From contig JALQUZ010000009.1 in NCBI GenBank assembly GCA_023263695.1, positions 1-48,364 of the forward strand: a stretch of DNA of 48,364 nucleotides, given 5' to 3'. Source of the stretch: Ilumatobacteraceae bacterium. Its GTDB lineage: Bacteria > Actinomycetota > Acidimicrobiia > Acidimicrobiales > Ilumatobacteraceae. Made by a program: the position numbers and the translations under genes. This document shows, piece after piece, positions 25,585 to 48,178 of this stretch (the first letter of the stretch is position 1; every line of letters begins with the position of its first letter). Under the pieces are notes generated by a model. That model was not told the DNA's origin, ran no database searches, and worked only from the letters and a program-made list of their open reading frames with translations.

Positions 25585-25622
25585 TAGTGCTCCGTATAGT
25601 TTTTTGTGATGGGGGTTGAGAC

Positions 25623-30126: not shown

Positions 30127-30151
30127 GACAGTATCTCGTTTCTTTCTTGTA

Positions 30152-31911: not shown

Positions 31912-31940
31912 AGGTACTCCCGTTACTGAGTGGAGCCGAG

Positions 31941-31950
31941 ATATATCACG
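31941..31950 (-). promoter_or_regulatory. TGATATAT motif upstream of the corrinoid operon
   Basis: The minus strand reads CGTGATATAT about 30 bp upstream of the corrinoid gene start. TGATATAT can be an extended -10 (TGN then TATATC) or a regulator half-site. Related TGATATA motifs occur at 40414, 40448 and 42141. Confidence 0.45.
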
Positions 31951-32003: not shown

Positions 32004-33650
32004 TTAGTGATGGCGGTAGAAATCGAGGTTTTCTGGCGGCAGCGGGGTCTTGCCCAAAATGATGTCCGCCGACTTCTCGGCAAGCATCATGACCGGGGCG
32101 TAGATGTTGCCATTGGTTACATACGGCATGACTGAGGCATCCACAACTCGGAGTCCTTGCATTCCCCTCACCCGCATAGTGGCTGGGTCGATGACCGACA
32201 TGTCGTCCACTCCCATTCGGCACGTGCATGACGGGTGATAAGCGGTTTCACCGTCTTTACGCACCCAGTCCAACACTTCGACATCAGTTGCAACAGTTGG
32301 TCCAGGTGAAATTTCGCCACCGCTAAATGGTGCAAATGCGGGCTGATTCAAAATTTTGCGAGCAGCAGCAATCGCTTCAACCCATTCCTGCTTGTCCTCT
32401 TGCGTTGACAGGTAGTTGAAGGTGAAGGCAGGCTTATCACGCACATCGCCTGATGTCACTTTCAAACTGCCGCGCGAATTGGAATACATCGGACCGATGT
32501 GCACTTGGTACCCGTGGCCACTTGCAGGAGCAGTTCCGTCGTAGCGCACCGCAATCGGCAAAAAGTGAAACATCAAGTTCGGATATTTCACGGTGTCGTT
32601 ACTGCGAATAAACCCACCAGCTTCAAAATGATTTGACGCGCCTGGGCCTTTGCGGAACAGCCAAGCCAACCCAATGAATGGACGCCTCCACATTTTCATC
32701 ATTGGATTCAAAGACACGGGTTGTGTTGCAGAATGTTGAACGTACACCTCGAGATGATCTTGCAAGTTCTCTCCGACTCCCGGAAGATGATGTACCGGAG
32801 TAATGCCGACCTTTTGTAGCTCGTCACTGTTACCAATTCCCGAAACCTGCAGCAACTGTGGAGAGTTAAATGCTCCTCCGCACAAAATGATTTCTTTCGC
32901 TTGTACCGATCGCTTCCGGCCAAACGGCAATTCGTATTCAACGCCTGTTGCAGTTTTACCGCTGGTCAACACTTTTGTAACCAAGGCACGACATTGAACC
33001 GTGAGATTCTTGCGATGCTTCACCGGATGCAAATATGCACGTGCTGCGCTGTAGCGCCGACCACTTTTCACGTTGCGATCAAATGCCGCGAAACCTTCTT
33101 GTTGATATCCGTTTACATCTTGCGTAATTGGATGACCAGCTTCCTGCACTGCCTTGAAGAACGCACCGAACAATGGATTCTTCACTGCTCCACGTTCCAT
33201 ATGCAACGGACCCGACTTCCCGCGGAATTTGTCGGAAGGGTCTGCGGCGATACACGATTCCATTTTTTTGAAGTACGGCAAGCAATGCGCATAATCCCAC
33301 TCGCCCATTCCTGGGTCGGCTCCCCAACGTTCGTAGTCAAGTGGATTTCCCCGCTGAAAGATCATGCCGTTAATGCTGGATGATCCGCCAAGAATCTTTC
33401 CTCGTCCGTGAGTAATACGACGACCATCCATATGCGGTTCTGGTTGCGAGGAATACATCCAGTCGTACAACTTGTTGCCAATAGGGAATACCAACGCAGC
33501 GGGCATATGTACGAATACATCAAACCAATAGTCGGGACGACCGGCTTCAAGTACCAGAACTGAGTTGTTCGGATCTTCGCTTAAGCGATTCGCAAGCGCA
33601 CATCCAGCCGAACCACCACCAACAATCACGTAATCAAAAGACTTTTTCAC
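32004..33650 (-). CDS. GMC-family oxidoreductase (choline dehydrogenase-like)
   Basis: This 548-aa flavoprotein of the glucose-methanol-choline family has [17 protein letters not shown] near residue 10, [15 protein letters not shown], and the C-terminal HPSCTCRMG with the catalytic His near residue 472, then [14 protein letters not shown]. The HPSC-type box and overall length fit BetA-like enzymes. The expected reaction is choline to betaine aldehyde (possibly on to betaine) with FAD. No betaine aldehyde dehydrogenase is in the window. Its position, between the betaine transporter and the demethylation operon and on the same strand, supports a quaternary-amine alcohol as substrate. Other primary alcohols remain possible. 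Confidence 0.82.
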
Positions 33651-33739: not shown

Positions 33740-34744
33740 TCAGCTAAACCACGTAGACCATGTTGCTTCGTTTGCAGCGATCCAGTCGCTTGCAGCTTTA
33801 GCTGGTTCTACCTTGTCGATGTCTACTGGTCCAAGGAATGAAAGCTGGTCATCGGTGGTGAGGGCAAACTTCTGGAAGAAGTTAAATACCTTTCCATCCT
33901 TTGCAGCCAACTTTGCCGATGCAATCTTGAACAATGGGTCTTCTGGGTAGTCGCCGTCGCACTTTGCGCCATCAGCAGCACAGTCAACTGTTGGTGCTGG
34001 CAATGCAATGTTCTTCAGGTTGTACTTGCCTACTGCACCCGATGGGCTCCAGTAGTACACCAACACCGGCTTCTGATCAGCAGAGAGTGCCGAAATTTCT
34101 GCTTGTGTTGCTGCTTCTGAACCAGAGAATTGAACTTGGAATGGCAAGCCGAGGTTGGCAATGATTGCTTCGTCGTACTGGCTAAACGATGGGTCCATGC
34201 CAAGGAAGCGGCCTTTGTCACCAGTTGCTGCCGTAGCGAATGCTTTAGCAACTGCTGGATCCTTCAAGCCTTCCCACGATGACAACTGTGGAAACTGAGT
34301 AAGTGCATAGTCAGAAACGAACCAACCAATTTTCCCTACTGCGCCAAGCGCGCCCATGTTGGTTACTGAGCAGTCGTCGATGAATGCCTGCTCATCGGCA
34401 ACAACGCCAGATGGCCACACTTCAACGCTGGCATCAATATCGCCAGATGACATACCAGCAAACATTGCGTTCTCATCGATGTCAACGATTTCTACTGGGT
34501 TGCCGAGATTCTTTTCGATCAACTGCTTGACGATTTCCACTTCAACAGCCGATGCCGACCAGTTGTTGCGGGCAATCTTGATGGTCTCTGTACCTGTCGC
34601 ATCGAGGTTTACCTCTGGTGCTGCACAGCCATCCGTTGCGGCGGCTGTGGTATCTGATGTCGTGCTACTTCCACCGCAGGCTGCTCCAATAAGCGACCCA
34701 ACAGCAACAAGTCCGACGACGAGCAATTTCTTGCTTGAACGCAT
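33740..34744 (-). CDS. Glycine betaine/proline ABC transporter substrate-binding lipoprotein (OpuAC/ProX-type)
   Basis: This 334-aa precursor has a signal peptide with start MRSSKKLL and a lipobox GAAC with the lipidated Cys at 23. The mature part has RNNWSASAVEVE, EVWPSGVV, GWFVSDYAL and VYYWSPSGAVGKY, with Trp and Tyr residues of the kind that form the cation-pi cage around a trimethylammonium group. The start is the ATG at 34744 because AGGGGAG precedes it. It is transcribed away from the ATPase-permease pair across an 86-bp gap with two palindromes, and ends at a strong terminator, so the binding protein is probably made in excess. Confidence 0.9.
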   Translation of the reverse strand: MRSSKKLLVVGLVAVGSLIGAACGGSSTTSDTTAAATDGCAAPEVNLDATGTETIKIARNNWSASAVEVEIVKQLIEKNLGNPVEIVDIDENAMFAGMSSGDIDASVEVWPSGVVADEQAFIDDCSVTNMGALGAVGKIGWFVSDYALTQFPQLSSWEGLKDPAVAKAFATAATGDKGRFLGMDPSFSQYDEAIIANLGLPFQVQFSGSEAATQAEISALSADQKPVLVYYWSPSGAVGKYNLKNIALPAPTVDCAADGAKCDGDYPEDPLFKIASAKLAAKDGKVFNFFQKFALTTDDQLSFLGPVDIDKVEPAKAASDWIAANEATWSTWFS

Positions 34745-34766
34745 GTTCTCCCCTTTTGTTATGAAT

Positions 34767-34807
34767 GCACCGTAGGTGCGCAAAACCAGCATAACCAAGC
34801 CTTGGTT
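34767..34807. promoter_or_regulatory. Two palindromes in the divergent proX-type/proV-type gap
   Basis: GCACC-GTA-GGTGC (34767-34779) and AACCAAG-C-CTTGGTT (34793-34807) are perfect inverted repeats in the 86-bp region between the divergent binding-protein and ATPase genes. They are placed where an operator controlling both directions would be expected. The second is the stronger candidate. Confidence 0.5.
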
Positions 34808-34830: not shown

Positions 34831-35874
34831 GTGTCGTCTGTGCATGGGGACGCATCGAAGGCCATTGAAGTTCGCAATGTGTGGAAGGTATTCGGACAAG
34901 GGTCGCCCGACGAGGCCATAGCCCTAGCCAAAGCGGGAACAACTCGCCAAGACATCATCACGAGCACTGATCAGACGGTTGCCGTACGAGATGTTTCATT
35001 CAGCGTTGCTCGCGGAGAGACATTTGTGGTGATGGGGCTAAGCGGCTCTGGAAAATCCACGCTCATTCGCTGTCTCTCTCGTTTGATTGAACCAACCTCC
35101 GGCGAAGTTTTGCTTAACGGCGAAGACCTGTTAGCGATGAATGCAGATCAGTTACGCGAGGTTCGGCGCGGAAAAATCAGCATGGTGTTTCAACACTTCG
35201 GCCTCTTCCCACATCGCAAAGTCATTGACAACATTGCATACGGTCTTGAGGTTCAAAAAGTTGACAAGGCAACTCGTCATGCACGAGCAACCGAAGTGCT
35301 CAATATTGTTGGGCTTGACGGCTGGGCCGATCGATATCCGCAGCAACTTTCTGGCGGAATGCAGCAACGAGTAGGCCTTGCACGAGCACTTGCTGTTGAC
35401 CCAGAGATTTTGTTGTTTGACGAACCTTTTTCTGCACTTGACCCTCTTATCCGCAAAGAGATGCAAGATGAATTGATACGTCTTCAGAAGTCCATGCAAC
35501 GAACCATTATTTTCATTACTCACGATTTCGCCGAAGCACTTCGACTCGGCGACCGAATTGCCATCATGAAAGATGGCTCGTTCGATCAGGTAGGCACGCC
35601 AGAAGAGATTGTGTCCAACCCCGCCACTCCATATGTACGCGAATTTGTTAACGACGTTCCGCGCGCGAAAGTGCTGAGCGTTCGCTCGGTAACGGTTGCG
35701 GGAAATGCACCTGCAGGAGCACGCACGGTGAACGCATCATCTCGAATTGAAACAGTCATTCCTATGTTGTTAGAACGAGACGAAGCCATTCAAGTACTTG
35801 ACGAGAGCGGCTCTGCAATCGGAGTAGTCAATCGCCACAACGTGGCAAGTATGTTGCAAGCCGAACAACGATGA
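34831..35874 (+). CDS. Glycine betaine ABC transporter ATP-binding protein (OpuAA/ProV-type)
   Basis: This 347-aa ATPase has Walker A GLSGSGKST (residues 69-77), signature LSGGMQQ (173-179), Walker B ILLFDEPFSALD (about 193-204) and the switch His in FITHDF. The N-terminal insertion with VWKVFG and the late SPDEAIALAKAG region match ProV/OpuAA. The C-terminus (about 290-347) looks like a single weak CBS-like unit ending in GVVNRHNVASML. The GTG start has AGGAG 10 nt upstream. The stop overlaps the permease ATG (ATGA). The system imports glycine betaine, and by context possibly carnitine or gamma-butyrobetaine. Confidence 0.92.
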   Translation: MSSVHGDASKAIEVRNVWKVFGQGSPDEAIALAKAGTTRQDIITSTDQTVAVRDVSFSVARGETFVVMGLSGSGKSTLIRCLSRLIEPTSGEVLLNGEDLLAMNADQLREVRRGKISMVFQHFGLFPHRKVIDNIAYGLEVQKVDKATRHARATEVLNIVGLDGWADRYPQQLSGGMQQRVGLARALAVDPEILLFDEPFSALDPLIRKEMQDELIRLQKSMQRTIIFITHDFAEALRLGDRIAIMKDGSFDQVGTPEEIVSNPATPYVREFVNDVPRAKVLSVRSVTVAGNAPAGARTVNASSRIETVIPMLLERDEAIQVLDESGSAIGVVNRHNVASMLQAEQR

Positions 35875-37748
35875 TGAAGCGTTACCGCACAGTTCTTCTT
35901 GCGGTACTTGCGCTGCTCATGGGTTTGCAAATTGCCGGTAGCGGCGGGTTTCCTAAGTCGTGGAATATCCATCTATCCGATCCGATCAACACCTGGCAAT
36001 CGTGGATTCGCTCAAATCGCAGTCATCACTGGCTCTTCACCTACCTGCTTAACCCCATTACCTCGGTAGTTGAATTTGGGCTAAATAAAACCGAGGCATT
36101 CATCAGTTGGTTGCCTTGGTTTATTCCCGCCATCATCGTGTTTGCGGTGATTGCACGCACGGGAAAATGGATTGTCGCCAGTTTTGCTGCGTTTGCAGTG
36201 ATCTATCCGGGAATCGTTGGAGTGTGGCCGCAAAGCATCGAGACCATTTCCCTCATGGCTGTTTCCGTAGTCATTAGCGTGATCATCGGTGTTCCGCTTG
36301 GTGTATGGACCGCGCTCAACAAGCGCGTTGAATCGTTTCTTCGTCCAATCCTTGATGCGATGCAGACCGTTCCCGCAACCGTGTACCTCATACCCATCGT
36401 GTTGTTGTTTGGTATCGGCAAAGTTCCTGCCGCCATTGCAACTGTCGTGTACGCACTTCCGCCGATGGTCCGACTCACGTCGCTGGGAATTCAACAAGTG
36501 CCGCATTCGGCAATCGAAGCAGGACAAATGTTTGGAGCAACTAAGCGTCAGATTCTTGCTCGCATTCAGCTACCGCTGGCGCTTCCATCAATCATTGCGG
36601 GTATCAACCAAACCGTGATGATGGCACTCGGCATTGTGGTCATTGCCACGCTCGTTGGCGCAGGTGGACTTGGACAGGAAATCATGCAAACGGTTCGTCA
36701 GCTCTCGCCAGGACGAGGCCTTGTCGTGAGCCTTGCAGTTGTCTCAGTTGCATTCGTTCTCGACCGCGTGAGCCTTGCCTTGGTGCGTAACCCAGGCTCC
36801 ACTCAACACAAGTTTTCGCGACAGCAGTGGCTTGCTTTCACCGGAGCTCTTGTTGCAGCAACCATCGTTGGACGATTACTCGGTTGGCATGAGTTTCCAT
36901 TTTCGTGGGGAACCTCGTTCGCCGACCCCGTAGATACTGGAGTGATTTGGTTCCGCGACACCTTTTCATTCATCACACATCCATTCAATGATTTCATTGT
37001 TCGCGAGGTTCTCGTTCGTTCACAGAAATTGTTGAACAACTCACTGTCATGGCAGTTCATCGTTGTCGCAGCATCGGCAATTGTCTATGTAATTGCCGGA
37101 TGGAAACTTTCGCTCACTACAGCTATCGGTATCGTTCTGATCGGGCTCACCGGAAGGTGGCCAGATGCAGTTGACACACTTTCTCAGACTCTTGTTGCTG
37201 TTTTGATTTCAATTGTGATTGCACTACCAATTGGAATTTGGCTTGGGCGACGACCTCGTGCCGAAGCAGCACTCTCGCCCATTTTGGATTCACTACAAAC
37301 CATTCCACCGCTGATTTATGCAATCCCTTTTGTCATGATCTTTACCGTTGGACCTGTGCCTGGCGTCATTGCAGCTGTGGTGTATTCAATTCCGCCCGGC
37401 ATACGCCTCACCTCGCTTGGCATCCGACAGGTCAACGCAGAATCAATTGAAGCTGCGCAAACTTTTGGCGCTACCGACAGACAAGTGCTGTGGGGGGTAC
37501 GCATTCCACTGGCCATGCCAAGCATCATTTTGGCAATCAATCAAATGGTCATGATGGTGCTCGCCATGGCGATCATTGCCGGAATGGTTGGTGGTGGTGG
37601 ATTGGGTTATCGCTCCATCGAAGCACTTACTGGTCCGAACAAAGGCCTTGGCGCAGAAGTCGGTATAGCAATTGTGATTATGGCGACCATCCTGGATCGC
37701 CTTACGCAGTCAACTGCGAAACGCTTACAAGCGCCAGCGGCTATGTAG
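35871..37748 (+). CDS. Fused double permease of a glycine betaine ABC transporter
   Basis: This 625-aa membrane protein contains two ProW/OpuAB-type permease halves in tandem. The first half (about 100-305) carries the EAA-like loop EAGQMFGATKRQILARIQLP; the second half (about 410-615) carries EAAQTFGATDRQVLWGVRIP. The two halves also repeat the segments GLGQEIM / GLGYRSI and VVIATLVG / MAIIAGMVG. A single polypeptide therefore supplies both membrane subunits. The ATG overlaps the ATPase stop. The end converges with folD 6 bp away. The fusion is known from other actinobacteria and some proteobacteria but is less usual than a single ProW. Substrate by context. Confidence 0.9.
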   Translation: MMKRYRTVLLAVLALLMGLQIAGSGGFPKSWNIHLSDPINTWQSWIRSNRSHHWLFTYLLNPITSVVEFGLNKTEAFISWLPWFIPAIIVFAVIARTGKWIVASFAAFAVIYPGIVGVWPQSIETISLMAVSVVISVIIGVPLGVWTALNKRVESFLRPILDAMQTVPATVYLIPIVLLFGIGKVPAAIATVVYALPPMVRLTSLGIQQVPHSAIEAGQMFGATKRQILARIQLPLALPSIIAGINQTVMMALGIVVIATLVGAGGLGQEIMQTVRQLSPGRGLVVSLAVVSVAFVLDRVSLALVRNPGSTQHKFSRQQWLAFTGALVAATIVGRLLGWHEFPFSWGTSFADPVDTGVIWFRDTFSFITHPFNDFIVREVLVRSQKLLNNSLSWQFIVVAASAIVYVIAGWKLSLTTAIGIVLIGLTGRWPDAVDTLSQTLVAVLISIVIALPIGIWLGRRPRAEAALSPILDSLQTIPPLIYAIPFVMIFTVGPVPGVIAAVVYSIPPGIRLTSLGIRQVNAESIEAAQTFGATDRQVLWGVRIPLAMPSIILAINQMVMMVLAMAIIAGMVGGGGLGYRSIEALTGPNKGLGAEVGIAIVIMATILDRLTQSTAKRLQAPAAM

Positions 37749-37754
37749 TTTCAG

Positions 37755-38648
37755 TTACTTGGTTGGAAAAGCGCCGAGCATTTTTGCTGCGGACAACGTA
37801 TTTTCCAATAAGCATCCAATGGTCATCGGACCAGTTCCACCAGGCATTGGTGTAATTGCGCCAGCAACAGCCTGAACTGCATCGAAATCGACGTCACCAA
37901 CAATTTTTGCTTCTTCACGAGATACACCAACGTCGATCACCGTTGCACCAGGCTTCACATGATCGGCAGTAATGAGTCGTGCAATACCAACGCACGACAC
38001 GATGATGTCGGCTTCGCGGCAATATGCCTTCAAGTCTTCAGGTGAAGTATGCGAGTGAGTACATGTTGTTGTTGCGTCGCCACCCTTGCGCAAGAACAGT
38101 ACTAATTGAGGAAGTCCTGTCAACGTTGAGCGACCGATAACGACGACCCGCTTACCCTTGGTAGGAATTTCGTAGCGCTCGAGCAAACGCATCACACCAA
38201 GTGGCGTGCATGGTGCATGTCCAGGAAGACCCCGCAAGAGACGACCCATGCTTCGCTCCGTAAGTCCATCAACATCTTTTTCTGGCGGCAACAGTGCAAG
38301 CACTGGTTCGGCATCAAGGTGTTTTGGTAAAGGCAATTGCACCAAAATGCCGTGCACGGTTGGATCTGCAGCAAGCCTGCGTACCTCTGCTTCAACTTGT
38401 TCCTGAGTTGCATCTTCTTCAAGGTGCACGCCAACAGAAATCATTCCTGCTTCTTGGGCCTTCTTGTGCTTACTCGCAACATAAATGTGGCTTGGCTTAT
38501 CGCCACCCACCAAAACTGTTGCCAAGCACACCGCTGGAGAACCAGCAGCTTCGATTTCTTTTCGCAAGCGTGCAACCGTTTCGTCGCGCAAGTTATTGCC
38601 ATCCATCAAGATGGCGCCACCAGGCGTGCGCTTGTAATCAGTGCTCAT
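37755..38648 (-). CDS. folD: Methylenetetrahydrofolate dehydrogenase / methenyl-THF cyclohydrolase (FolD)
   Basis: This 297-aa bifunctional enzyme converts 5,10-methylene-THF to 10-formyl-THF with NAD(P). It has YVASKHKKAQEAG with the catalytic Lys, VHGILVQLPLPKHL, DVDGLTERSMGRLL, VVIGRSTLTGLPQ (the NAD(P) loop, with the usual GRSxxVGxP altered to GRSTLTGLP), and PMPGGTGPMTIGCLLENT at the C-terminus. The ATG overlaps the fhs stop (ATGA), so fhs and folD are co-translated. With the MTHFR and Fhs in the window it forms a THF-bound one-carbon oxidation route. Family assignment is secure. Confidence 0.95.
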   Translation of the reverse strand: MSTDYKRTPGGAILMDGNNLRDETVARLRKEIEAAGSPAVCLATVLVGGDKPSHIYVASKHKKAQEAGMISVGVHLEEDATQEQVEAEVRRLAADPTVHGILVQLPLPKHLDAEPVLALLPPEKDVDGLTERSMGRLLRGLPGHAPCTPLGVMRLLERYEIPTKGKRVVVIGRSTLTGLPQLVLFLRKGGDATTTCTHSHTSPEDLKAYCREADIIVSCVGIARLITADHVKPGATVIDVGVSREEAKIVGDVDFDAVQAVAGAITPMPGGTGPMTIGCLLENTLSAAKMLGAFPTK

Positions 38649-40342
38649 GAAAGACCGACGATTTCGCCGTTCTCATCAAAGTCGATGATTGCTGCAGCTG
38701 GCTTGGTGCCAAGACCAGGAAGCGTGCGCATGTCGCCACAAATTGGATACACAAAGCCTGCACCAACTGATGCACGAACTTCGCGCACGTTCAGAGTGTG
38801 GCCCTTCGGTGCACCCTTCAATGAAGCGTCACCCGAGATGGACAAGTGAGTCTTAGCAATACACACTGGCAGGTGACCAAAGCCGTTGTCGGTGTAGTTC
38901 TTCAACTGCTTGGTTGCAAGTGCCGAATACGTAACGTTTGCTGCACCGTAGATGGTCTTCGCAACAGTCTCAATCTTTTCCTTGAGTGATGCCTCGTCCT
39001 TGTACAGCATGTGGAAGTTGTTCTTCTCGTTGCAGGCCTCTTCAACTGCCTTTGCCAACTCAACCGCTCCAGCGCCACCATCTGCGAAGTGCGTGCACAA
39101 TGCAACACGTGCACCGGCAGACAACGCAATTTTGCGAATCGCTTCGTGCTCTGAGGCATGGTCAGTTGGGAATGAGTTAATGGCAACCACTGGAACTACG
39201 CCGTGCGCCTTGACGTTTTCGATTTGTGCGCGCAAGTTCTCGCCACCCATTTCAACGTCTGCTGGGTTTTCTGCGAGCAAGTCTGGAGGCAATGCTTTTC
39301 CTGCCACGATCTTGTACTTACCGGAGTGAGCCTTCAATGCTCGCACTGTTGTTACCAACACCGCGGCGTCTGGGGTCATGCCCGAGTAACGGCACTTGAT
39401 GTTGAAGAAGCGCTCTGCGCCCATGTCGGCGCCGAATCCTGCTTCGGTGATGAGATAATCGCCACCGTGAATACCGATCATGTCGCCAATGATTGACGAG
39501 TTTCCGTGTGCAATGTTTCCAAATGGTCCTGCATGCACGATTACGGGGGTGTTCTCCAGAGTCTGCAAAAGGTTTGGCTTAATTGCGTCGCGCATGATGA
39601 CGGCCATCGAACCTGCTGCGCTCAGTTGCTCTGCTGTTACTGGCTGCCCCTTGGTGTTGTAACCAACAACAATGCGAGCGAAACGGTTACGCATGTCTTC
39701 AAGCGAAGTTGACAAGGCAAGAATCGCCATCACTTCAGAAGCTGCGGTGATGTCGAATCCGGTTTGGCGAACTACTCCGTCTTCCTTCGTGCCAAGACCA
39801 ACAATGATGTTGCGCAAGGAGCGATCGTTTACGTCGATCACTCGACGCCAGGTGATGTTGTCCATATCGAGATCGAGTTCATTGCCCTGGTGTAAATGGT
39901 TATCCACCATTGCTGACAGCAAGTTGTGCGCGGCAGTTACTGCGTGGAAGTCGCCCGTGAGGTGCAAGTTGAGCAATTCCATTGGAATAACTTGGCTGTA
40001 GCCACCACCTGCTGCACCGCCCTTAATTCCAAACGTTGGTCCCATTGATGGCTGACGCAAGCTGATGACAGCATTTTTGCCAATGTGCTTAAACGCTTGA
40101 CCGAGACCAACCGTTGTTGTGGTCTTTCCTTCACCCAGTGGGGTTGGAGTGATTGCAGTAACCACGACGTACTTCGCCTTTGGACGCGACTTCAACTCGT
40201 CGATTGCATCGAGACTGATTTTTGCCAGGCTCTTGCCGTAAGGCTCAAGCAGATGTTCGCCGATACCCATCTGGGCAGCGATGTCCTTCAACGGCAGTGG
40301 CTTGCCCTGGCGCGCAATTTCAAGATCTGATGGAAACGACAT
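38645..40342 (-). CDS. fhs: Formate-tetrahydrofolate ligase
   Basis: This 565-aa enzyme interconverts formate, ATP and THF with 10-formyl-THF. It has TPTPLGEGKTTTTVGLGQAF at 65-84 (nucleotide loop), RQPSMGPTFGIKGGAAGGGY-type segment near 100-120, LTGDFHAVTAAHNLL, and FVYPICGDMRTLPGLGTKPA at the end. I set the ATG at 40342 because GGGGAG lies 8 nt upstream; the longer open frame to 40426 is non-homologous. It is the first gene of the fhs-folD operon. In this context the reverse reaction, giving ATP and formate from demethylation carbon, is likely. Confidence 0.95.
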   Translation of the reverse strand: MSFPSDLEIARQGKPLPLKDIAAQMGIGEHLLEPYGKSLAKISLDAIDELKSRPKAKYVVVTAITPTPLGEGKTTTTVGLGQAFKHIGKNAVISLRQPSMGPTFGIKGGAAGGGYSQVIPMELLNLHLTGDFHAVTAAHNLLSAMVDNHLHQGNELDLDMDNITWRRVIDVNDRSLRNIIVGLGTKEDGVVRQTGFDITAASEVMAILALSTSLEDMRNRFARIVVGYNTKGQPVTAEQLSAAGSMAVIMRDAIKPNLLQTLENTPVIVHAGPFGNIAHGNSSIIGDMIGIHGGDYLITEAGFGADMGAERFFNIKCRYSGMTPDAAVLVTTVRALKAHSGKYKIVAGKALPPDLLAENPADVEMGGENLRAQIENVKAHGVVPVVAINSFPTDHASEHEAIRKIALSAGARVALCTHFADGGAGAVELAKAVEEACNEKNNFHMLYKDEASLKEKIETVAKTIYGAANVTYSALATKQLKNYTDNGFGHLPVCIAKTHLSISGDASLKGAPKGHTLNVREVRASVGAGFVYPICGDMRTLPGLGTKPAAAIIDFDENGEIVGLS

Positions 40343-40411
40343 AGTGGAGACTCCCCGTTCAATTGCCACCTCGTGGCGATTTGGTCGCACCACTATATAG
40401 GAGTCGGAGCG

Positions 40412-40456
40412 CCTGATATATGACACGCCCCATAAGGCTCCGCGCGCTGATATAGG
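40412..40456 (+). promoter_or_regulatory. Two TGATATA sites between fhs and the oxygenase gene
   Basis: CTGATATATGAC (40413-40424) and GCTGATATAGG (40446-40456) both follow GCGC-type bases in the 122-bp divergent gap. The second is an extended -10-like element whose expected transcript start falls at or next to the oxygenase ATG at 40465, so that mRNA may be leaderless. They could also be operator sites for the nearby GntR-type regulator. Confidence 0.45.
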
Positions 40457-40464
40457 TTTGGGCC

Positions 40465-41442
40465 ATGCCCGAGAGTTTGCCCATTATCGATATCGCACCG
40501 CTGCGTGACGGGACGATAAACCCCAACTACAGCAAGGCTTCCCAAGAACTGTTTACCGCACTCTCTGAAATTGGTTTCGCGATCGTGGTTGGACATGGTG
40601 TCAGTCCTGACATCACTGCAGACATGCGCACCGCGGTGAAAACGGTCTTTGACACTCCGAGGGAAACACTGTTGCGCAACATGGTGGTGAAGGGCAACTA
40701 CCGCGGCTTTGTGCCGCTTGGATATTTCACACCTAATTCCGGAAAAGGTAAGGCTGATCAATACGAAGCGTGGAAGTTGCATTTCGAAACCGATGCACAC
40801 GACCCCATTCGCACAGAATGCGATTTGTATGGTCCAAACATTTGGCCGGAAATTGAAAGCGATGTTCGCACGCCAATCATGAAGTATTGGCACGCGCTCG
40901 ATGCAGTGAGCGAAGTACTGATCGTTGCCTTATGCGAGCAACTTGGCGTTGACCCGAATGTGCTGTTGTCGTGCATGTCTATGCCGCTTACCAACATGAC
41001 CTTGTTGAACTACCCACCTGTTGAACCACAAGCAGACACATGGGGAATTCACCCACATAAGGATTTCAACTTGCTCACGCTGCTTGCACATGATCCCATC
41101 GGAGGACTTGAAGTGCGCAAGCGCAACGGTGAGTGGATCAATGCAGATTGCCCAGAGAACGGCATGGTGCTCAATGTTGGTGACATGTTGGAGCTCTGGA
41201 GCGGTGGACGACTTCTCTCTACTCCACACCGCGTATTCAACAAGTCGGGAAAACCGCGACAATCGTTTCCGTATTTCTCAAAGCCACGGTGGGATGTTGT
41301 TGTTCAACCACTTGTCGCACCACTCGATGGATTTGATCGTGTGCCGCTTCACGTCGGCACATCGGCGGCCGACATTTGGTATTCAAATTGGCCAGATACT
41401 GCGAGCACAGACCCTGCGCAGGTGCTGGGAAAATTTGAATAG
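40465..41442 (+). CDS. 2-oxoglutarate/Fe(II)-dependent dioxygenase, isopenicillin N synthase family
   Basis: This 325-aa oxygenase has the N-terminal DIOX_N-type domain (LPIIDIAPL, FAIVVGHGVS) and a jelly-roll core with the iron triad His198, Asp200 (HPHKD) and His255 (STPHRV), plus 2OG-binding Arg265 and Ser267 (RxS). It therefore looks catalytically complete. The substrate is unknown; its location beside a GntR regulator and amine-catabolic genes suggests hydroxylation or oxidative demethylation of a betaine or related amine, which is inference. It is not of the TauD/gamma-butyrobetaine hydroxylase fold type. It converges with the regulator gene with no spacer. Only a weak ribosome site precedes the ATG. 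Confidence 0.85.
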   Translation: MPESLPIIDIAPLRDGTINPNYSKASQELFTALSEIGFAIVVGHGVSPDITADMRTAVKTVFDTPRETLLRNMVVKGNYRGFVPLGYFTPNSGKGKADQYEAWKLHFETDAHDPIRTECDLYGPNIWPEIESDVRTPIMKYWHALDAVSEVLIVALCEQLGVDPNVLLSCMSMPLTNMTLLNYPPVEPQADTWGIHPHKDFNLLTLLAHDPIGGLEVRKRNGEWINADCPENGMVLNVGDMLELWSGGRLLSTPHRVFNKSGKPRQSFPYFSKPRWDVVVQPLVAPLDGFDRVPLHVGTSAADIWYSNWPDTASTDPAQVLGKFE

Positions 41443-42111
41443 TTATTTTGGAAGCGGCGAACTCAGACGCTTACGCACTGCCTGATTCATTTCATCATCA
41501 AAACCACGTACGTGCTTTTCGCACAACTCTGCAGCGGTATCACCATCGCCCGCTGCAAGTCGTTCAAACATTTCGCCATGCTCTTGTACAGCGTGCTTCA
41601 TGTCGGCAACATCGGCAATATACAAATGCCACAAGCGATCACTCTGCGCGTACATCATGTCGAGCGTTGCAGTAAGAAAACGATTGCCAGCTGCATCCCA
41701 CACAATTTCGTGACACCGGCGGTCGATCTTCATGAGATCATCGTTTGTGGCGCCAGGCGCTTCTGCGCGCGCAAGCACGCGAGCCATTTCGTCCCAATGT
41801 TCTTGTTTTCCTCGCTTGGCAGCAAGTCGCATTGCATAGGGTTCAAGTAGTGCACGGGTCTCGTACAACATGCTCAGTTCCATGACGTCAATACCTGACA
41901 CCAACATGCCTCGGCGCGGGATGACCGTGACGAACTGGTCACGGGCTAACCGCTGGAGCGCCTCACGAATTGGGGTGCGGCCGATGCCGAGTTGACCCTG
42001 AAGGGTCTCCTCTTTAATCACGTCGCCGGGGGCCAATTCGAGGCGGACAATTTTGTTCCGAATCTCGAGATAGGCCTGCTCGCTCAACGAAGTACTCACG
42101 CAGGGCATCAT
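41443..42111 (-). CDS. GntR family transcriptional regulator, FCD subfamily
   Basis: This 222-aa regulator has a winged helix-turn-helix (about 14-75) with LGIGRTPIREALQRLARDQFV, and an all-helical FCD ligand domain (about 80-212). The FCD metal set appears intact as Asp129, His133, His177 and His199, so a metal-bound carboxylate ligand is expected. It is divergent from the DMGDH-ETF operon and next to the oxygenase, and probably controls these genes by binding in the 42112-42209 gap and perhaps at other TGATATA sites. The start at 42111 is one of several in frame (ATG at 42108, GTG at 42096); the choice is uncertain. Confidence 0.88.
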   Translation of the reverse strand: MMPCVSTSLSEQAYLEIRNKIVRLELAPGDVIKEETLQGQLGIGRTPIREALQRLARDQFVTVIPRRGMLVSGIDVMELSMLYETRALLEPYAMRLAAKRGKQEHWDEMARVLARAEAPGATNDDLMKIDRRCHEIVWDAAGNRFLTATLDMMYAQSDRLWHLYIADVADMKHAVQEHGEMFERLAAGDGDTAAELCEKHVRGFDDEMNQAVRKRLSSPLPK

Positions 42112-42149: not shown

Positions 42150-42209
42150 ACCAAAATTCAATTGTGGCCTCGCCCAACGGGGGTGTGGTCCTCTTTTTGG
42201 GGGTATCTC

Positions 42210-44753
42210 GTGAGTGAATTTCCAAGCCGCGCAAAGTGTGTCGTTATTGGCGCCGGAATCGTGGGCAACTGTCTTGTTGGCCACTTGAGCAAGCTCGGCT
42301 GGACCGACATGGTGCTCATTGACAAGGGGCCATTGCCAAACCCAGGCGGTTCAACCGGTCACGCGTCCAACTTCATCTTCCCTACCGACCACAACAAAGA
42401 GATGGCACTACTCACGCTTGCATCACAGCAGCAGTACATCGAGCACGGCATGAACAACACCTCTGGCGGTATTGAAGTTGCTCGCACTCCAGAGCGCATG
42501 GAGGAATTCAACCGCCGCATGACTTCGGCAAAAGCATGGGGCATTGATGCAAAGTTGCTTACCCCAGCTGAAATCAAAGAACTTGTTCCGTTCATTAACG
42601 AAAAGATTTTGCTCGGTGGTTTCTACACACCAAGCGTGTCGGTTGTCGATTCGCTACAAACGGGTACTTTGATGCGCGAAAGCGCACTGAAGGCCGGCCA
42701 CTTGCAAGTGTTTGCAAACACAGAAGTGCTTGACCTCGAAACTAAGAACGGTCAAATCTCTGCTGTAGTTACCAATAAGGGACGCATCGAAGCTGAATAC
42801 GTCGTCATTGCTTGCGGCGTGTGGAGCCCACGCATCGCAAAGATGGCGGGAGCAAACATTCCACTTACACCAGCTGTTCACCAGATGGCAGACGTTGGAC
42901 CAATTGACGTATTGCAAAAGACCAATGCCGAAGTTGCATTCCCAATCATTCGCGACATGGACACCTTCTGCTACGAGCGTCAATCAACGGGCTCGATGGA
43001 AGTCGGTTCGTACGCTCACCGTGCAATCTTCATGCACCCAGACGACATTCCGTCAAACGAAGCATCGGCACTCTCCCCAACCGAGTTGCCACTCACCATG
43101 GACGACTTCGATCCGCAGATGGAACAAGCAATTGAGTTGATGGAAATGCTCGGCGACGCCGAAATTAAATACGCCATCAACGGCTTGCTTTCACTCACAC
43201 CAGACGCAATGCCAGTACTTGGCGAAACCGTTGAAGTAAAGAACTTGTGGTCTGCTGCTGCTGTATGGATTAAAGAAGGTCCAGGCATTGCACAACTCGT
43301 TGCCGAATGGATGACGTATGGCTACCCACACTTGTGTGACCCACACTCGTCAGACATCAGCCGTTTTTACCCACACGAAAAAACTGAGCACCACATTTAC
43401 GCACGTTGCGATGAGCACTTCAACAAGACATACGGCATTGTGCACCCACGCGAACAGTGGGCTTCGCAGCGCAATATGCGTCGTAGCCCGTTCTACCCAC
43501 GCGAAGAAGCACTTGGCGCAACATTCTTCGATGCCCGCGGTTGGGAGCGTCCACAGTGGTTTGCATCGAATGCGAAACTCGTCGACAAGTTCCCAGCAGT
43601 GTGCGCACCTCGCGAACATGAATGGGATGCACGCTGGTGGTCACCAATCACCAACGCAGAGCACATGCAAATGCGCGAATCAGTTGGCATGGTGGACCTC
43701 ACTGCGTTCAACGAATTCGACTTTGAAGGCCCAGGCGTCGTCAATTTCTTGCAATACGTATGCGTCAACAATGTTGACGTGCCAGTTGGCCGTTCGGTCT
43801 ATACACCACTCCTCACTCCAGGTGGCGGATTCCGTGGCGACCTCACCATCATGCGACTCGGCCAAGAACACTTCCGTGTAATCACCGGCGCATTTGACGG
43901 TGGACGCGACAAATACTGGTTCAAGAAGTACATGCCAACCGATGGTTCGGTCACCTTCACCGACATGAGCCAAGCACTCTGCACCATTGGTGTGTGGGGA
44001 CCAAACGCTGAAAAGACCATGGCGAAGGCAACACAAACCATCGATGCCGAAGGCAAGTTGATTCCATTCGATGTGTCGCAAGCAAACTTCCCATACGGAT
44101 CAGTGCGCGACGTGTTGATCGACGGTGTACCTGCAACCATGTTCCGCATTTCATATGTGGGAGAAAATGGTTGGGAGGTGTACACACGCATGGAGCACGG
44201 TCTGCGTATGTGGGACACCATTGCAGAAGCTGGAAAAGAATTCGACATCATTCCTGTAGGAATGGGCGTATACGCAGTAACTGGTCGCATCGAAAAGGGC
44301 TACCGCCTCATGGGTGCAGAACTTGAAAGCGAATACACACCAGTTGAAGCAGGTTTGGCACGTCCGAAGGTGAAGTCGGCCGACTTCATTGGTAAGGCCG
44401 CATACATGAAGGCACGTGAAGAAAAGCCAGCGGCAATTATGTGCACGCTCGAAATTCTTGACCACACGTCGAAGTCAGGTATCAAGCGTTACCCAACGGG
44501 AGGCAACGAACCAATCCTCACCAAGACTGGCGAGCGAATCGTTGACGCTAAGGGCCGCGTATCACGCGTCACCACCGCTGGTATGGGACCGTCGCTCGGC
44601 AAGTACTTGCTCCTCGCCTACCTCACACCAGAACATGCTGTTGAAGGCAACGAACTGCGCGTGATGTACATGAACGAATTGTTCCCAGTAAAAGTCGCTC
44701 GAGTAGGCAGCCAACCGCTGTTCGACCCAACCGACGCTCGCATGAAGAGCTAA
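42210..44753 (+). CDS. Dimethylglycine/sarcosine dehydrogenase-like flavoprotein with GcvT domains
   Basis: This 847-aa protein joins a DAO-type FAD domain (about 8-380), a linker domain and a GcvT/aminomethyltransferase half (about 430-845). FAD contacts include VVIGAGIVGN (11-20) and GSTGHAS (47-53); His51 aligns with the His that binds FAD covalently in DMGDH, where the usual string is GSTWHAAG. The folate half has WWSPITNAEHMQMRESVGMVDL and GENGWEVYTRMEHG. The expected reaction is oxidative N-demethylation with formation of methylene-THF and electrons to ETF. I chose the GTG at 42210 with GGGGG six bases upstream; an open frame from TTG at 42162 is possible. The next genes are etfBA. Confidence 0.88.
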   Translation: MSEFPSRAKCVVIGAGIVGNCLVGHLSKLGWTDMVLIDKGPLPNPGGSTGHASNFIFPTDHNKEMALLTLASQQQYIEHGMNNTSGGIEVARTPERMEEFNRRMTSAKAWGIDAKLLTPAEIKELVPFINEKILLGGFYTPSVSVVDSLQTGTLMRESALKAGHLQVFANTEVLDLETKNGQISAVVTNKGRIEAEYVVIACGVWSPRIAKMAGANIPLTPAVHQMADVGPIDVLQKTNAEVAFPIIRDMDTFCYERQSTGSMEVGSYAHRAIFMHPDDIPSNEASALSPTELPLTMDDFDPQMEQAIELMEMLGDAEIKYAINGLLSLTPDAMPVLGETVEVKNLWSAAAVWIKEGPGIAQLVAEWMTYGYPHLCDPHSSDISRFYPHEKTEHHIYARCDEHFNKTYGIVHPREQWASQRNMRRSPFYPREEALGATFFDARGWERPQWFASNAKLVDKFPAVCAPREHEWDARWWSPITNAEHMQMRESVGMVDLTAFNEFDFEGPGVVNFLQYVCVNNVDVPVGRSVYTPLLTPGGGFRGDLTIMRLGQEHFRVITGAFDGGRDKYWFKKYMPTDGSVTFTDMSQALCTIGVWGPNAEKTMAKATQTIDAEGKLIPFDVSQANFPYGSVRDVLIDGVPATMFRISYVGENGWEVYTRMEHGLRMWDTIAEAGKEFDIIPVGMGVYAVTGRIEKGYRLMGAELESEYTPVEAGLARPKVKSADFIGKAAYMKAREEKPAAIMCTLEILDHTSKSGIKRYPTGGNEPILTKTGERIVDAKGRVSRVTTAGMGPSLGKYLLLAYLTPEHAVEGNELRVMYMNELFPVKVARVGSQPLFDPTDARMKS

Positions 44754-44763
44754 GTAACTCGTC

Positions 44764-45531
44764 ATGAACATTCTCGTTTGCGTGAAACGTGTGCCAGCTC
44801 CTGGTGCACGCATCAACATCACTGAAGATGGCCAAGCAGTAGACACTGCATTCCTTGGATTCACGGTTAGTCCGCACGAAGAGTGCGCCGTGGAACAAGC
44901 AGTACAACTCGTAGAGAAGCACGGCGGCGAAGTCACCGTACTTACTCTTGGGCCAGCAGAAGCCGAAGAGCAGTTACGCACCGCAGTCAGCGTTGGTGCA
45001 GCTAAAGCGGTACTTGTTCCGATCACCGAATCGGACTGGGACCCACAGCGAACTGCGCAAGCAATTGCTTCGGTGATTACCGATCTTGAAAACGCAAACG
45101 GCAAGTTCGACTTAGTGCTATTCGGTAACGAATCAGCAGACTCATGTGGTTATCAAGTTGGTATTCGCGTAGCCCTCAAGCTCGGCCGCCCAATGGTGAA
45201 CGGTGCAAAAGGTCTCGACATCGAAGGAACCATTGCCAAGGTTCGCCGTGAAAGCGACGCAGGTCAAGAGATCTACATGTTGCCAATGCCTTCTGCAGTT
45301 GGCGTGAAAGAAGGAATCAACCTTCCCCGTTACCCAACCATGAAGGGCCGCTTGGCGTCAAAGAAAGTCGATGTCACACGAACAGAATCGACCGGTTCAG
45401 TTGGCGGGTTAAAGATGATTCAACTTCAACGCCCACCAGAGCGCGTAAGCAATACGCAAATTTTGGGAACAGGACCAGAAGCAGCTTCAGCAGTAGTTGA
45501 CTTGCTTGAAGAACTAGGAGTGTTCAAATGA
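44764..45531 (+). CDS. etfB: Electron transfer flavoprotein beta subunit
   Basis: This 255-aa protein has NILVCVKRVPAPG at the start, SPHEECAVEQAVQL, AEEQLRTAVSVGAAKAVLV and FGNESADSCGYQVGIRVAL, characteristic of EtfB with AMP binding. It accepts electrons from dehydrogenases, here likely the DMGDH-like enzymes and the acyl-CoA dehydrogenase, and passes them to ETF:quinone oxidoreductase, which is not in the window. It starts 10 bp after the DMGDH gene and its stop overlaps the etfA ATG. The late GLKMIQLQRPPERVS region is typical. Confidence 0.95.
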   Translation: MNILVCVKRVPAPGARINITEDGQAVDTAFLGFTVSPHEECAVEQAVQLVEKHGGEVTVLTLGPAEAEEQLRTAVSVGAAKAVLVPITESDWDPQRTAQAIASVITDLENANGKFDLVLFGNESADSCGYQVGIRVALKLGRPMVNGAKGLDIEGTIAKVRRESDAGQEIYMLPMPSAVGVKEGINLPRYPTMKGRLASKKVDVTRTESTGSVGGLKMIQLQRPPERVSNTQILGTGPEAASAVVDLLEELGVFK

Positions 45532-46505
45532 GCGTTCTTGCCGTAATCGAACACGATCGCGGAACTATCGCTCCAGCATCACTTGGCGTGTTAACCGCAG
45601 CGCGCAATCTTGCAACACAGATGGGCACTTCGCTCGAAGCAGTGACCGTTGGCGCGAATGCCGATTCACTTGCAACGATTGCTGCTCAATACGGAGCAAC
45701 CGTTGTTCATCAAGCACACCATGCAGCACTCACCGACTTCGGACCAGAAGCGTGGGGCGAAGCGATTGCGCAAGTTGTTCGCGCAACTACGCCACAAGTG
45801 GTGATGGGAACTGGAACTGAACGCGGTCACGAAGTGATTGCACAAGTTGCAGCACGACTCGATTTACCAGCATCAATGAACTGCATCGAATTTGACACTG
45901 CATTTACCGGCGCACAACCTTTGAAGGTGGTTCGCGCACGTTGGGGCGGATCACTGCTCGAGCAAGCCGAAGTTGATGCACCAATGAAGTTGGTCACGCT
46001 TGCAAACCACACAGTTGAAGCAAGTGAATCTCCAGCAGCTGCCACCAACACGGTGCACAATGTTGAACTGAACGATTCGGTGATGCATTCATTTGTCCAA
46101 GACCGAGTTGAACGCGTTGCAGGTGTCACGCTCGCAACCTCGCCAGTGGTAGTAAGCGGTGGTCGCGGTGTTGGTTCGGCAGAAGCATTTGCTCCACTAG
46201 AAGAGCTTGCAGGTCTACTGGGCGGAGTCGTTGGCTGTTCGCGCGCAGTTACGAACAACGGCTGGCGCAATCACACCGACCAAGTTGGCCAAACCGGCAC
46301 CCGAATTGCTCCGGACATCTATATTGCCTGCGGAATTTCCGGGGCCATCCAACACTGGGTTGGCGCAATGGCTTCGAAAAACATTCTTGCCATCAACACT
46401 GATAAGGAAGCCAACATTGTGACCAAGGCTGGCTATGCCGTTATTGGCGACCTGCACAAGATTGTGCCCGCAATCTCCGAAGAAATTCGCCGCCGGCGCG
46501 GGTAA
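45528..46505 (+). CDS. etfA: Electron transfer flavoprotein alpha subunit
   Basis: This 325-aa FAD-carrying subunit has an N-terminal domain (LAVIEHDRGTIAPAS) and the C-terminal FAD domain with VVSGGRGVGSAEAF, GCSRAVTNNGWRNHTDQVGQTG, APDIYIACGISGAIQHWVGA and INTDKEANI, the full EtfA signature. It pairs with EtfB; the ATG overlaps the etfB stop by 4 bp (ATGA). The C-terminus ends RRRRG. A 119-bp gap with a palindrome follows before the second MttB gene, so this may be an operon end or an internal promoter. Confidence 0.96.
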   Translation: MSVLAVIEHDRGTIAPASLGVLTAARNLATQMGTSLEAVTVGANADSLATIAAQYGATVVHQAHHAALTDFGPEAWGEAIAQVVRATTPQVVMGTGTERGHEVIAQVAARLDLPASMNCIEFDTAFTGAQPLKVVRARWGGSLLEQAEVDAPMKLVTLANHTVEASESPAAATNTVHNVELNDSVMHSFVQDRVERVAGVTLATSPVVVSGGRGVGSAEAFAPLEELAGLLGGVVGCSRAVTNNGWRNHTDQVGQTGTRIAPDIYIACGISGAIQHWVGAMASKNILAINTDKEANIVTKAGYAVIGDLHKIVPAISEEIRRRRG

Positions 46506-46545: not shown

Positions 46546-46624
46546 GAAAATCAGGTGTTGGTTGTAGTGTTTCCTCCTTGTGTGGTCCGAATTTTCGGGC
46601 CCGGAAACCAAATTGAGGGACATC

Positions 46625-48178
46625 GTGACCGAAGTCGAAACTGGTGGGCCGCGTCGTCGCGGACGTGAACGTCAAGCAGCAGGTCCACGCTCCCGACTCC
46701 CCGAGCAAAAGGCTTTTCGTCAACCTCGAATGAAATATGCCCCAACCAAAGTCATCAGCGATGACGAGGTTGAAGCCATTCACCATGCATCACTGCGCGT
46801 CCTCTCCGAAATCGGCATTGACTTCTTACTCCCCGAGGCGCTCGAGCTGATCGCTAAATCTGGCGGAGCAAAAATTTCCGATAACCGAGTGCGCTTCGAC
46901 CCAGCTTTTGTTGAAGAGACCATCAAGACGTGCCCAAGTGAATTCAAACTGCATTCGCGCAACCCAAACCACACCCTCAATATTGGTGGTGACTGGATGG
47001 CATTCGGTTCTGTTGCAAGCCCACCTAACTTCATGGAGCTTGACGGCACTCGTCACGCAGGAAACCGACAGAACTTCCAAGACCTACTCAAGCTGACTCA
47101 AAGCTTCAACATCGTCCACTTCACTGCTGGCTACCCAGTTGAACCAGTTGACTTGCACTCCTCCATTCGTCACTTGGAATGCACTTACGACATGCTCACC
47201 ATGACCGACAAACCGATCCACTGCTACAGCCTCGGTCGTCAGCGCAACCAAGACGTATTGGAGATGTCGCGCATTGCACGCGGTATCGATGATGCAACTT
47301 TGGACAAAGAGCCATCGGTGTTCACCATCATCAACTCGTCTTCACCGTTGCGTCTTGACATTCCGATGTTGCAAGGCATCATGGAATATTCAGCTCGTAA
47401 TCAGATCATCGTCATCACTCCGTTCACTCTTGCCGGTGCAATGGCTCCAATCACACTTGCTGGCGCACTTTCACTGCAAAATGCTGAGGCACTAGCTGGA
47501 ATGGTGTTCACACAACTCGTTCGCCCTGGCGCTCCAGTGATGTACGGCGGATTCACGTCAAACGTGGACATGCAATCAGGAGCACCAGCATTTGGAACAC
47601 CTGAATACATGCGTACCGCAATGGCTGGCGGACAACTCGCACGTCGATACAAAGTTCCGTTCCGTTCAAGCAACGTATGTGCAGCAAATGCTCTAGATGC
47701 TCAGGCGGCCTACGAAAGCGTGTTCTCACTATGGGGCGCAATTCAAGGTGGAGTGAACTTCTTGATGCACGGTGCAGGCTGGATGGAAGGCGGACTACAC
47801 GCTTCACTCGAGAAGTTTGTGCTCGATGCCGACTTGCTCGCAATGGTTGCCGACTATTTAGAACCAATCGTTGTTGACGAATCTACGCTGGCATTCGAAG
47901 CCATTCAAGAAGTTGGACCAGCCGGACACTTCTTTGGCACGCAACACACACAAGACCGTTTCCGTGATGCGTTCTACAAGCCGTTGATTTCCGATTGGCG
48001 TAACTACGAGTCGTGGGAAGAAGCCGGCAAACCAACTGCTGACCAAAAGGCAAAACAACTTGCGCAGGCTTACGTTGAAGAGTTCATTGCTCCAGAACTC
48101 GACTCCGCAATTCAGCAAGAACTGTTGGAGTTCAAGCAGCGTCGCGTCGCCGAGGGCGGCGTGGCAACCGATTTTTAA
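46625..48178 (+). CDS. MttB-family (non-pyrrolysine) methylamine:corrinoid methyltransferase 2
   Basis: This 517-aa paralogue of the 25623-27161 product has ITPFTLAGAMAPITLAG, QLVRPGAPVMYGGF, DAQAAYESVFSLWG and HGAGWMEGGLHASLEKFV, matching it motif by motif but diverging elsewhere. No in-frame UAG is present, so it is a non-pyrrolysine member. The GTG at 46625 is preferred (GAGGGA 4-6 nt upstream); the open frame extends to 46580. The N-terminus is Arg/Gly rich (GGPRRRGRERQAAGPRSR). It lies in the DMGDH-ETF cluster with no corrinoid gene beside it. The substrate (glycine betaine or another betaine) cannot be told from sequence. Confidence 0.9.
   Translation: MTEVETGGPRRRGRERQAAGPRSRLPEQKAFRQPRMKYAPTKVISDDEVEAIHHASLRVLSEIGIDFLLPEALELIAKSGGAKISDNRVRFDPAFVEETIKTCPSEFKLHSRNPNHTLNIGGDWMAFGSVASPPNFMELDGTRHAGNRQNFQDLLKLTQSFNIVHFTAGYPVEPVDLHSSIRHLECTYDMLTMTDKPIHCYSLGRQRNQDVLEMSRIARGIDDATLDKEPSVFTIINSSSPLRLDIPMLQGIMEYSARNQIIVITPFTLAGAMAPITLAGALSLQNAEALAGMVFTQLVRPGAPVMYGGFTSNVDMQSGAPAFGTPEYMRTAMAGGQLARRYKVPFRSSNVCAANALDAQAAYESVFSLWGAIQGGVNFLMHGAGWMEGGLHASLEKFVLDADLLAMVADYLEPIVVDESTLAFEAIQEVGPAGHFFGTQHTQDRFRDAFYKPLISDWRNYESWEEAGKPTADQKAKQLAQAYVEEFIAPELDSAIQQELLEFKQRRVAEGGVATDF

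Follow-up and report, generated by a model that had tools for sequence, protein, structure and literature searches.

Plankton draw on betaines and other methylated osmolytes as important sources of nitrogen and carbon, and the enzymes usually credited with oxidising these compounds are of the corrinoid, flavin or Rieske kinds. In SAR11, a route of glycine betaine demethylation with THF-linked C1 oxidation has been described (PMC3160333). The locus reported here, in a window (the whole stretch of DNA that was analysed) of 48,364 bases, has BHMT, DMGDH, FolD, Fhs and a betaine ABC importer in common with the available part of that description, and FDH is found in relatives of the window. It differs from the SAR11 route by corrinoid MtgABC/MttB and RACo, and by an oxygenase and sulfatase-like genes, which are not among the SAR11 genes given in the same available part (PMC3160333). 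The host is a planktonic actinobacterium with a small acidimicrobial genome (1.67 Mb). The locus, which we take to serve the breakdown of choline and glycine betaine in combination with THF-linked oxidation of C1 units, has the following genes.

22379..23389, minus strand: betaine--homocysteine methyltransferase (BHMT), by profile matches
24700..25737, minus strand: MetF-like 5,10-methylene-THF reductase, by PDB 7xg9 (E 5.9e-30)
25623..27161, minus strand: MttB-family glycine betaine methyltransferase (MTTB_A), by profile and PDB 4yyc, 9yce
27199..29217, minus strand: RACo-like corrinoid reductive activator, by profile matches
29224..30270, minus strand: pterin-binding methyltransferase (MtgA-like), by profile matches
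30544..31170, minus strand: DUF1638 protein, by profile match
31192..31911, minus strand: corrinoid protein, MtgC type, by profile matches
32004..33650, minus strand: choline dehydrogenase BetA, by profile matches
33740..34798, minus strand: OpuAC-type betaine-binding protein, by profile match
34831..37748, plus strand: ProV/ChoV ATPase and ProW/ChoW permease, choline/betaine ABC importer, by profile matches
37755..38648, minus strand: FolD, methylene-THF dehydrogenase/cyclohydrolase, by profile matches
38645..40342, minus strand: formate--tetrahydrofolate ligase (FTHFS, fhs), by profile matches, start corrected
40465..41442, plus strand: Fe(II)/2OG oxygenase, IPNS-like (DIOX_N and 2OG-FeII_Oxy), 325 aa, by ORF, Pfam, orthologue alignment and dN/dS
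41443..42111, minus strand: GntR/FCD transcription regulator that may act on the operator sites, by profile matches
42162..44753, plus strand: DMGDH-like protein (DAO and GCV_T), probable start GTG at 42210, by profiles; best PDB 1pj5, dimethylglycine oxidase
44764..45531, plus strand: electron transfer flavoprotein beta, by profile match
45528..46505, plus strand: electron transfer flavoprotein alpha, by profile match
46580..48178, plus strand: second MttB-family methyltransferase (MTTB_B), by profile match and PDB search

The order outward from the oxygenase is FTHFS, FolD, ProW/ProV, OpuAC, BetA, the MtgC-type corrinoid protein and DUF1638 on one side, followed further out by the pterin methyltransferase, the RACo-like protein, MttB, the MetF-like protein, a DAO protein and BHMT. 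On the other side it is GntR (FCD type), the DMGDH-like gene, EtfBA and the second MttB, in agreement with the initial annotation, which had placed the oxygenase between fhs-folD and the GntR/DMGDH genes. The FTHFS frame obtained by ORF calling runs to 40426, and ATG at 40342 is its probable start, because FTHFS profiles begin at residue 32-33. Each step of glycine betaine demethylation has a nearby candidate enzyme without the oxygenase, which is therefore more likely an accessory enzyme, peripheral to this demethylation. The MetF-like protein had no Pfam match at 0.001, and its relatives adjoin FTHFS, EtfA or MttB in four of the ten other family genomes fetched (L140, L142, L147, L148). The RACo-like corrinoid activator lies in one locus with a gene for an O2-dependent enzyme.

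The oxygenase ORF is unbroken from ATG to stop. It matches DIOX_N (E 6.5e-18, 65.9 bits against a gathering cut-off of 27.3) and 2OG-FeII_Oxy (E 1.8e-21, 76.8 bits against 23) in Pfam, which bears out the earlier assignment to the IPNS family; in NCBIfam, no model matched at E 0.001. The iron triad H198-x-D200 with H255 and the 2OG site R265-x-S267 are read in the translation at precisely the positions that had been claimed as intact. In an alignment of the window protein and 39 orthologues (52-90% identity to it), H198, D200, H255 and R265 are constant in 40 of 40 rows and S267 is kept in at least 90%; Y183 is presumably a further 2OG-site residue. By its domains and cofactor residues the protein is an IPNS-like Fe(II)/2OG oxygenase, with predicted turnover. 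Its dN/dS of 0.055-0.076 against six close orthologues indicates purifying selection (synonymous change was saturated for four more distant orthologues), and because these values are low the gene is taken as real and kept; a pseudogene or relaxed gene is ruled out by them. The oxygenase nevertheless changes faster than the adjoining FTHFS, FolD, GntR and DMGDH. Two further, more distant oxygenase paralogues occur in the same genome, one with 25% identity and one with 37% over 106 residues.

Isopenicillin N synthase proper acts on the ACV tripeptide and uses no 2OG. True isopenicillin N synthase matches the oxygenase by phmmer at E only about 1e-10, and the neighbours of the oxygenase are betaine/C1 genes. 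The structure model is of low confidence (pLDDT 66.7, pTM 0.75), and Foldseek run on it puts the IPNS-like family first, with rmsd of about 4-8 A (6jyv, 3oox, 9ovh, SpoC, TraH). PDB 6jyv, an IPNS-like protein of Pseudomonas aeruginosa and presumably PA4191 of that species, ranks first with this low-confidence model and has a phmmer E of 4.1e-38, with a two-domain alignment and the HxD...H, RxS and RG..PLG motifs in common; it differs by an identity of about 30% and by having neither the FTPN insertion nor the K104, H106, T179, K199, N202 pattern, and no substrate was found to be assigned to it. The top phmmer match is the ancestral ethylene-forming enzyme Anc357 (PDB 9ovh, E 3e-46), which by the low-confidence model has the fold in common with the oxygenase; however, ordinary relatives have Arg at the place of T179, where the window family has Thr. 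The fungal IPNS-like 2OG oxygenases TraH, TropC, SpoC and thymine 7-hydroxylase are alike in predicted fold and in cofactor residues, but belong to fungal secondary or pyrimidine metabolism and have 20-30% identity to the oxygenase.

The subfamily was compared as 53 family rows, including four homologues of 43-44% identity from the same order, with eight ordinary outgroup oxygenases. Sites that are invariant or all-but-one in the family and different in the outgroups include N78, Y79, the F88-N91 insertion, Y100, K104 and H106, and further T179, H196, K199 (Thr in 8/8 outgroups), N202 (Gly in 8/8), N308 and P310. The FTPN insertion marks the family against ordinary relatives. T179 is found in at least 52 of 53 family rows and is Arg in all eight outgroup rows; this Arg is presumably the active-site Arg of ethylene-forming enzyme. 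Several subfamily-specific sites flank the iron ligands, and the active site has therefore probably been rebuilt for another substrate.

One scan of a collection of genome contigs from 84,980 species gave 56 loci with relatives, which were sorted by neighbours and titles: 36 are of acidimicrobial type, 19 belong to Comamonadaceae/Burkholderiales, and one (L033) is titled Anaerolineae. Five of the 56 had no ORF under simple gene picking and were dropped from the neighbour count. The upstream neighbour in all 33 readable acidimicrobial loci is FTHFS (10) or FdhA_N (23), which encodes the N-terminal half of a formate dehydrogenase alpha that is split; downstream, in 32 readable loci, it is an alkylsulfatase-like MBL gene (22) or GntR (10), and the MBL gene is usually followed by an FGly-type sulfatase. 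The full set is seen in L014, where the order is the C-terminal half of FdhA, a zinc ADH and a HalD-like Fe/2OG protein on the other strand, a NuoF-like FdhB, the N-terminal half of FdhA and the oxygenase, and then the MBL protein, a type I sulfatase, GntR and DMGDH. In L014 and L025, the oxygenase stop and the MBL start overlap by four bases. In this locus (L014:3528-9986) and its relatives, two separate genes encode formate dehydrogenase alpha, one for the catalytic C-terminal part and one for the Fe-S N-terminal part, and other genes lie in between. The HalD-like protein (L014:6276-7136, minus strand; PF23169, E 1.7e-13), a second protein of Fe/2OG type, adjoins the zinc ADH midway through the FDH cassette in one clade.

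In the tree, the L028/L030 pair is the earliest acidimicrobial branch (support 90/88, below the starred level), and its gene order is FTHFS, oxygenase, MBL, sulfatase. This earliest branch having oxygenase-MBL-sulfatase, the sulfatase link looks old and seems to have been lost beside the oxygenase in the clade of the window and in L022/L026. The Comamonadaceae/Burkholderiales homologues (52-58% identity in full-length rows) are mostly near yaaA-queF, and no amine genes were recognised around them; downstream genes in Comamonadaceae are ECH, a DNA polymerase of the impB/mucB/samB family, FMN_dh and hemerythrin. A search for viral relatives found none, and plasmid relatives have about 34% identity or less among the matches listed (25 of 316). 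Three loci (L024, L025, L032) are labelled Bifidobacterium breve or Marivivens sp.; these labels do not fit their gene content, which is of acidimicrobial type.

The oxygenase is present in 17 of 23 genomes of the host genus. Among 150 genomes of the family it occurs in 22, all within two genera. The DMGDH orthologue is more widespread (63 genomes), so the betaine route can do without the oxygenase. Twenty of the 22 oxygenase genomes also have the DMGDH orthologue at the cut-offs used, and in the other two (G302, G312) DMGDH is cut by the contig end. The two oxygenase-bearing genera are close kin and their loci are therefore not independent; kinship alone could explain the overlap of oxygenase and DMGDH among the family genomes.

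Type I sulfatase relatives are found in 9/9 searched genomes of the clade of the window, the host genome included. In this clade the sulfatase pair is placed in a separate DMGDH-MttB operon and not beside the oxygenase; where enough sequence was available (L112, L113 and L115), the operon has DMGDH-like, MttB-like, FMN dehydrogenase, MBL and sulfatase genes. In the host genome, the sulfatase gene of C132 is truncated where the contig ends, and C84 has the DMGDH-MttB beginning of such an operon; these two contigs presumably adjoin. Wherever it is readable, the FGly motif of the type I sulfatase is intact as CSPTR (CSPSR in the paralogue L119). Choline-O-sulfatase was considered for this sulfatase and not accepted, the matches being only PF00884 at E 1e-5 and, as best PDB entries, AtsA-type arylsulfatases. 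The MBL protein has the motif THFHYV.GT, or THYHYC.GT in L123, against HxHxDH of known alkylsulfatases, and its metal site may, judging from this motif, be partly lost. Since Asp and His of HxHxDH are missing, it is doubtful whether the MBL protein itself acts as a sulfatase. The altered motif is found in every cassette copy with a readable motif (e.g. L014:10978-12693, L112:8403-10112, L123:15655-17394).

A GntR-type palindrome, TGATATA(T/C)..AC, is found ahead of FTHFS/oxygenase, GntR/DMGDH, the MtgC-MttB operon, the sulfatase operon and two aminotransferases, and also in six further genomes. The sites in the window are as follows.

31937..31950, no strand: operator-like palindrome GTGATATATCTC ahead of the MtgC operon (PWM 13.8)
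40343..40464, no strand: divergent spacer of FTHFS (ATG 40342) and oxygenase, largely conserved in eight close relatives
40413..40425, plus strand: operator-like site CTGATATATGACA in the FTHFS/oxygenase promoter (PWM 13.5), with the same site in G301, G302, G312, G315
40447..40454, plus strand: second CTGATATA, 10 bp ahead of the oxygenase start codon, only in the window, L004 and L005
42140..42152, plus strand: operator-like site CTGATATACTACC in the GntR/DMGDH promoter, a site type in 20 loci, window included

The sequence CTGATATA occurs three times in the window (40413, 40447, 42140), a number reached in none of 100 shuffles. The GntR/DMGDH spacer keeps TGATATA(C/T).AC in 20 loci, with a perfect palindrome, GTGATATATCAC, in L014. 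A PWM built from the 19 other loci (6 distinct sites, some of those kept being identical to the one in the window) ranks 42140 highest in the window, then 31937 ahead of MtgC, then 40413, with a gap to the next site (13.5 against 11.5). All three are non-coding, in a window that is 93.6% coding. At a cut-off of 13.5, set after the hits were seen, at least three sites are found in 1/200 shuffles, at least two in 8/200, and at least three in 11/200 column-permuted matrices.

In the 1.67-Mb host genome, the pattern STGATATAYNNC has nine matches against none for the reversed pattern. Those outside the window are in a divergent DMGDH promoter on C84, at a class III aminotransferase gene of C70, ahead of a class I aminotransferase gene of C81, and inside genes (three). 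The C70 site overlaps the start of the aminotransferase, whose best PDB match is 6jix, taurine:2OG aminotransferase. The operator at the start of both aminotransferase genes (L133:6259-7615 and L136:6414-7643 for C70 and C81) is conserved in relatives. Six relatives have 43 pattern matches against two reversed. Thirty of the 43 were placed: four at FTHFS/oxygenase, four at GntR/DMGDH, four at MtgC, three at the DMGDH-sulfatase operon, six at the class I aminotransferase, three at the class III aminotransferase and six elsewhere. Six recurrent promoters, all of amine, C1 or aminotransferase genes, thus hold 24 of the 30.

The oxygenase promoter accordingly has a predicted operator in common with betaine genes, conserved in relatives. 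Co-regulation, which the initial annotation had proposed to check, is predicted by this operator, which is common to the promoters of the oxygenase, DMGDH, MtgC-MttB and other genes. We infer from the sequences that the GntR protein (41443-42111) would bind the operator-like sites and control the oxygenase, because a site adjoins its own gene. The site in the divergent spacer could serve FTHFS alone, and its position is no proof of oxygenase control. In L013, L014, L018, L022, L025, L031 and L056, the pattern was not found in the FTHFS/FDH spacer ahead of the FDH-oxygenase operon.

Tentatively, and with a little less than even confidence, we assign the oxygenase an accessory role in a regulon for betaine demethylation and one-carbon metabolism under GntR control. 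It would be a demethylase or hydroxylase that depends on O2 and 2OG, acts on a small methylated osmolyte and delivers C1 to the THF route. As its promoter has a predicted DNA switch common to betaine-demethylation genes, it probably opens another methylated, perhaps sulfated, nutrient for that breakdown route. In the least certain step, the enzyme would spend O2 and 2OG on hydroxylation of a carbon next to N or O of the osmolyte, which may also have a sulfate ester. The unstable hydroxylated product would give formaldehyde or an aldehyde and a less methylated product; the C1 unit would be burned via CH2-THF, FolD and FTHFS to formate, and the remaining product would pass to the DMGDH, MttB and aminotransferase members of the regulon. 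An amine substrate, for instance a cyclic betaine, had been considered plausible in the initial annotation. The amine locus stands, by its glycine betaine genes and the predicted co-regulation; the cyclic betaine in particular is not supported, no gene that would point to it having been found.

In relatives, the oxygenase repeatedly shares an operon with two genes of sulfatase families, which suggests a class of substrates not visible from the window. A new IPNS-like branch could act there with the type I sulfatase and the alkylsulfatase relative of altered metal site in an oxidative opening of methylated organosulfates or sulfated betaines in planktonic actinobacteria, with methyl carbon going to the THF route and sulfate to the cell under one GntR switch, a proposal that we hold to be rather unlikely. 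Less probable still is that the oxygenase acts as a type II alkylsulfatase like AtsK and Rv3406, hydroxylating the carbon of a sulfate ester, which collapses to aldehyde and sulfate. It would then add a third type of sulfatase to the type III-like MBL protein and the type I enzyme, and methyl or short alkyl sulfates would give C1 units. The operon with the Alkyl_sulf_dimr protein and the FGly-type sulfatase in relatives (with the four-base overlap in L014 and L025), its presence already in the oldest-branching pair L028/L030, the residues K104, H106 and K199 that outgroups do not have, and the Fe(II)/2OG class of chemistry would all fit this role, but type II alkylsulfatases known so far are of the TauD family. 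The oxygenase is IPNS-like and has no TauD domain in Pfam at E 0.001; moreover, the sulfatase pair does not adjoin it in 10 of 32 loci, and its MBL partner is itself of doubtful activity. The mechanism of type II alkylsulfatases has been described in the available part of PMC3675115. Membership of the TauD-type sulfatases or gamma-butyrobetaine hydroxylases is ruled out, no such domain having been found.

Hydroxylation of a betaine without C1 removal (gamma-butyrobetaine-, proline betaine- or carnitine-type), the product being taken by MttB, DMGDH and aminotransferases of the regulon, appears improbable. It would agree with the common operator of several MttB and DMGDH paralogues and two aminotransferases, and with the likeness of the class III enzyme to taurine:2OG aminotransferase, which fits an omega-amine end product; yet none of the neighbouring proteins scanned was recognised as one of carnitine or proline-betaine metabolism, and the betaine hydroxylases known to us are all of other folds, which counts against it. 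The oxygenase might also have entered the C1 locus by transfer and act on something unrelated to it, for example a secondary metabolite, a nucleobase or a small acid. Its nearest relatives outside the clade are, save one contig titled Anaerolineae, from Comamonadaceae in a different context, the 43-44% homologues of the same order adjoin other genes, and its rate of change exceeds that of its neighbours. We nevertheless find such a bystander unlikely in view of the position kept in 33/33 loci, the operon with FDH and sulfatase genes including a stop/start overlap, the operator in common with betaine genes and the strong purifying selection.

By title and start of abstract, no literature on this oxygenase family in betaine metabolism was found. 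If the accessory role in the betaine regulon is true, an IPNS-like oxygenase fixed in such a regulon would be a new enzyme class for osmolyte oxidation. The predicted GntR operator leads to a concrete gene set, i.e., DMGDH, MtgC-MttB, FTHFS/oxygenase, the DMGDH-MttB-MftD-sulfatase operon and two aminotransferases, and it still describes a predicted betaine regulon in a poorly known lineage if the oxygenase is a bystander. The FMN dehydrogenase inside the DMGDH-MttB-sulfatase operon of L112 (L112:7210-8379, G309:C25) is of MftD type, matching the pre-mycofactocin synthase model with 688 bits against a cut-off of 471.
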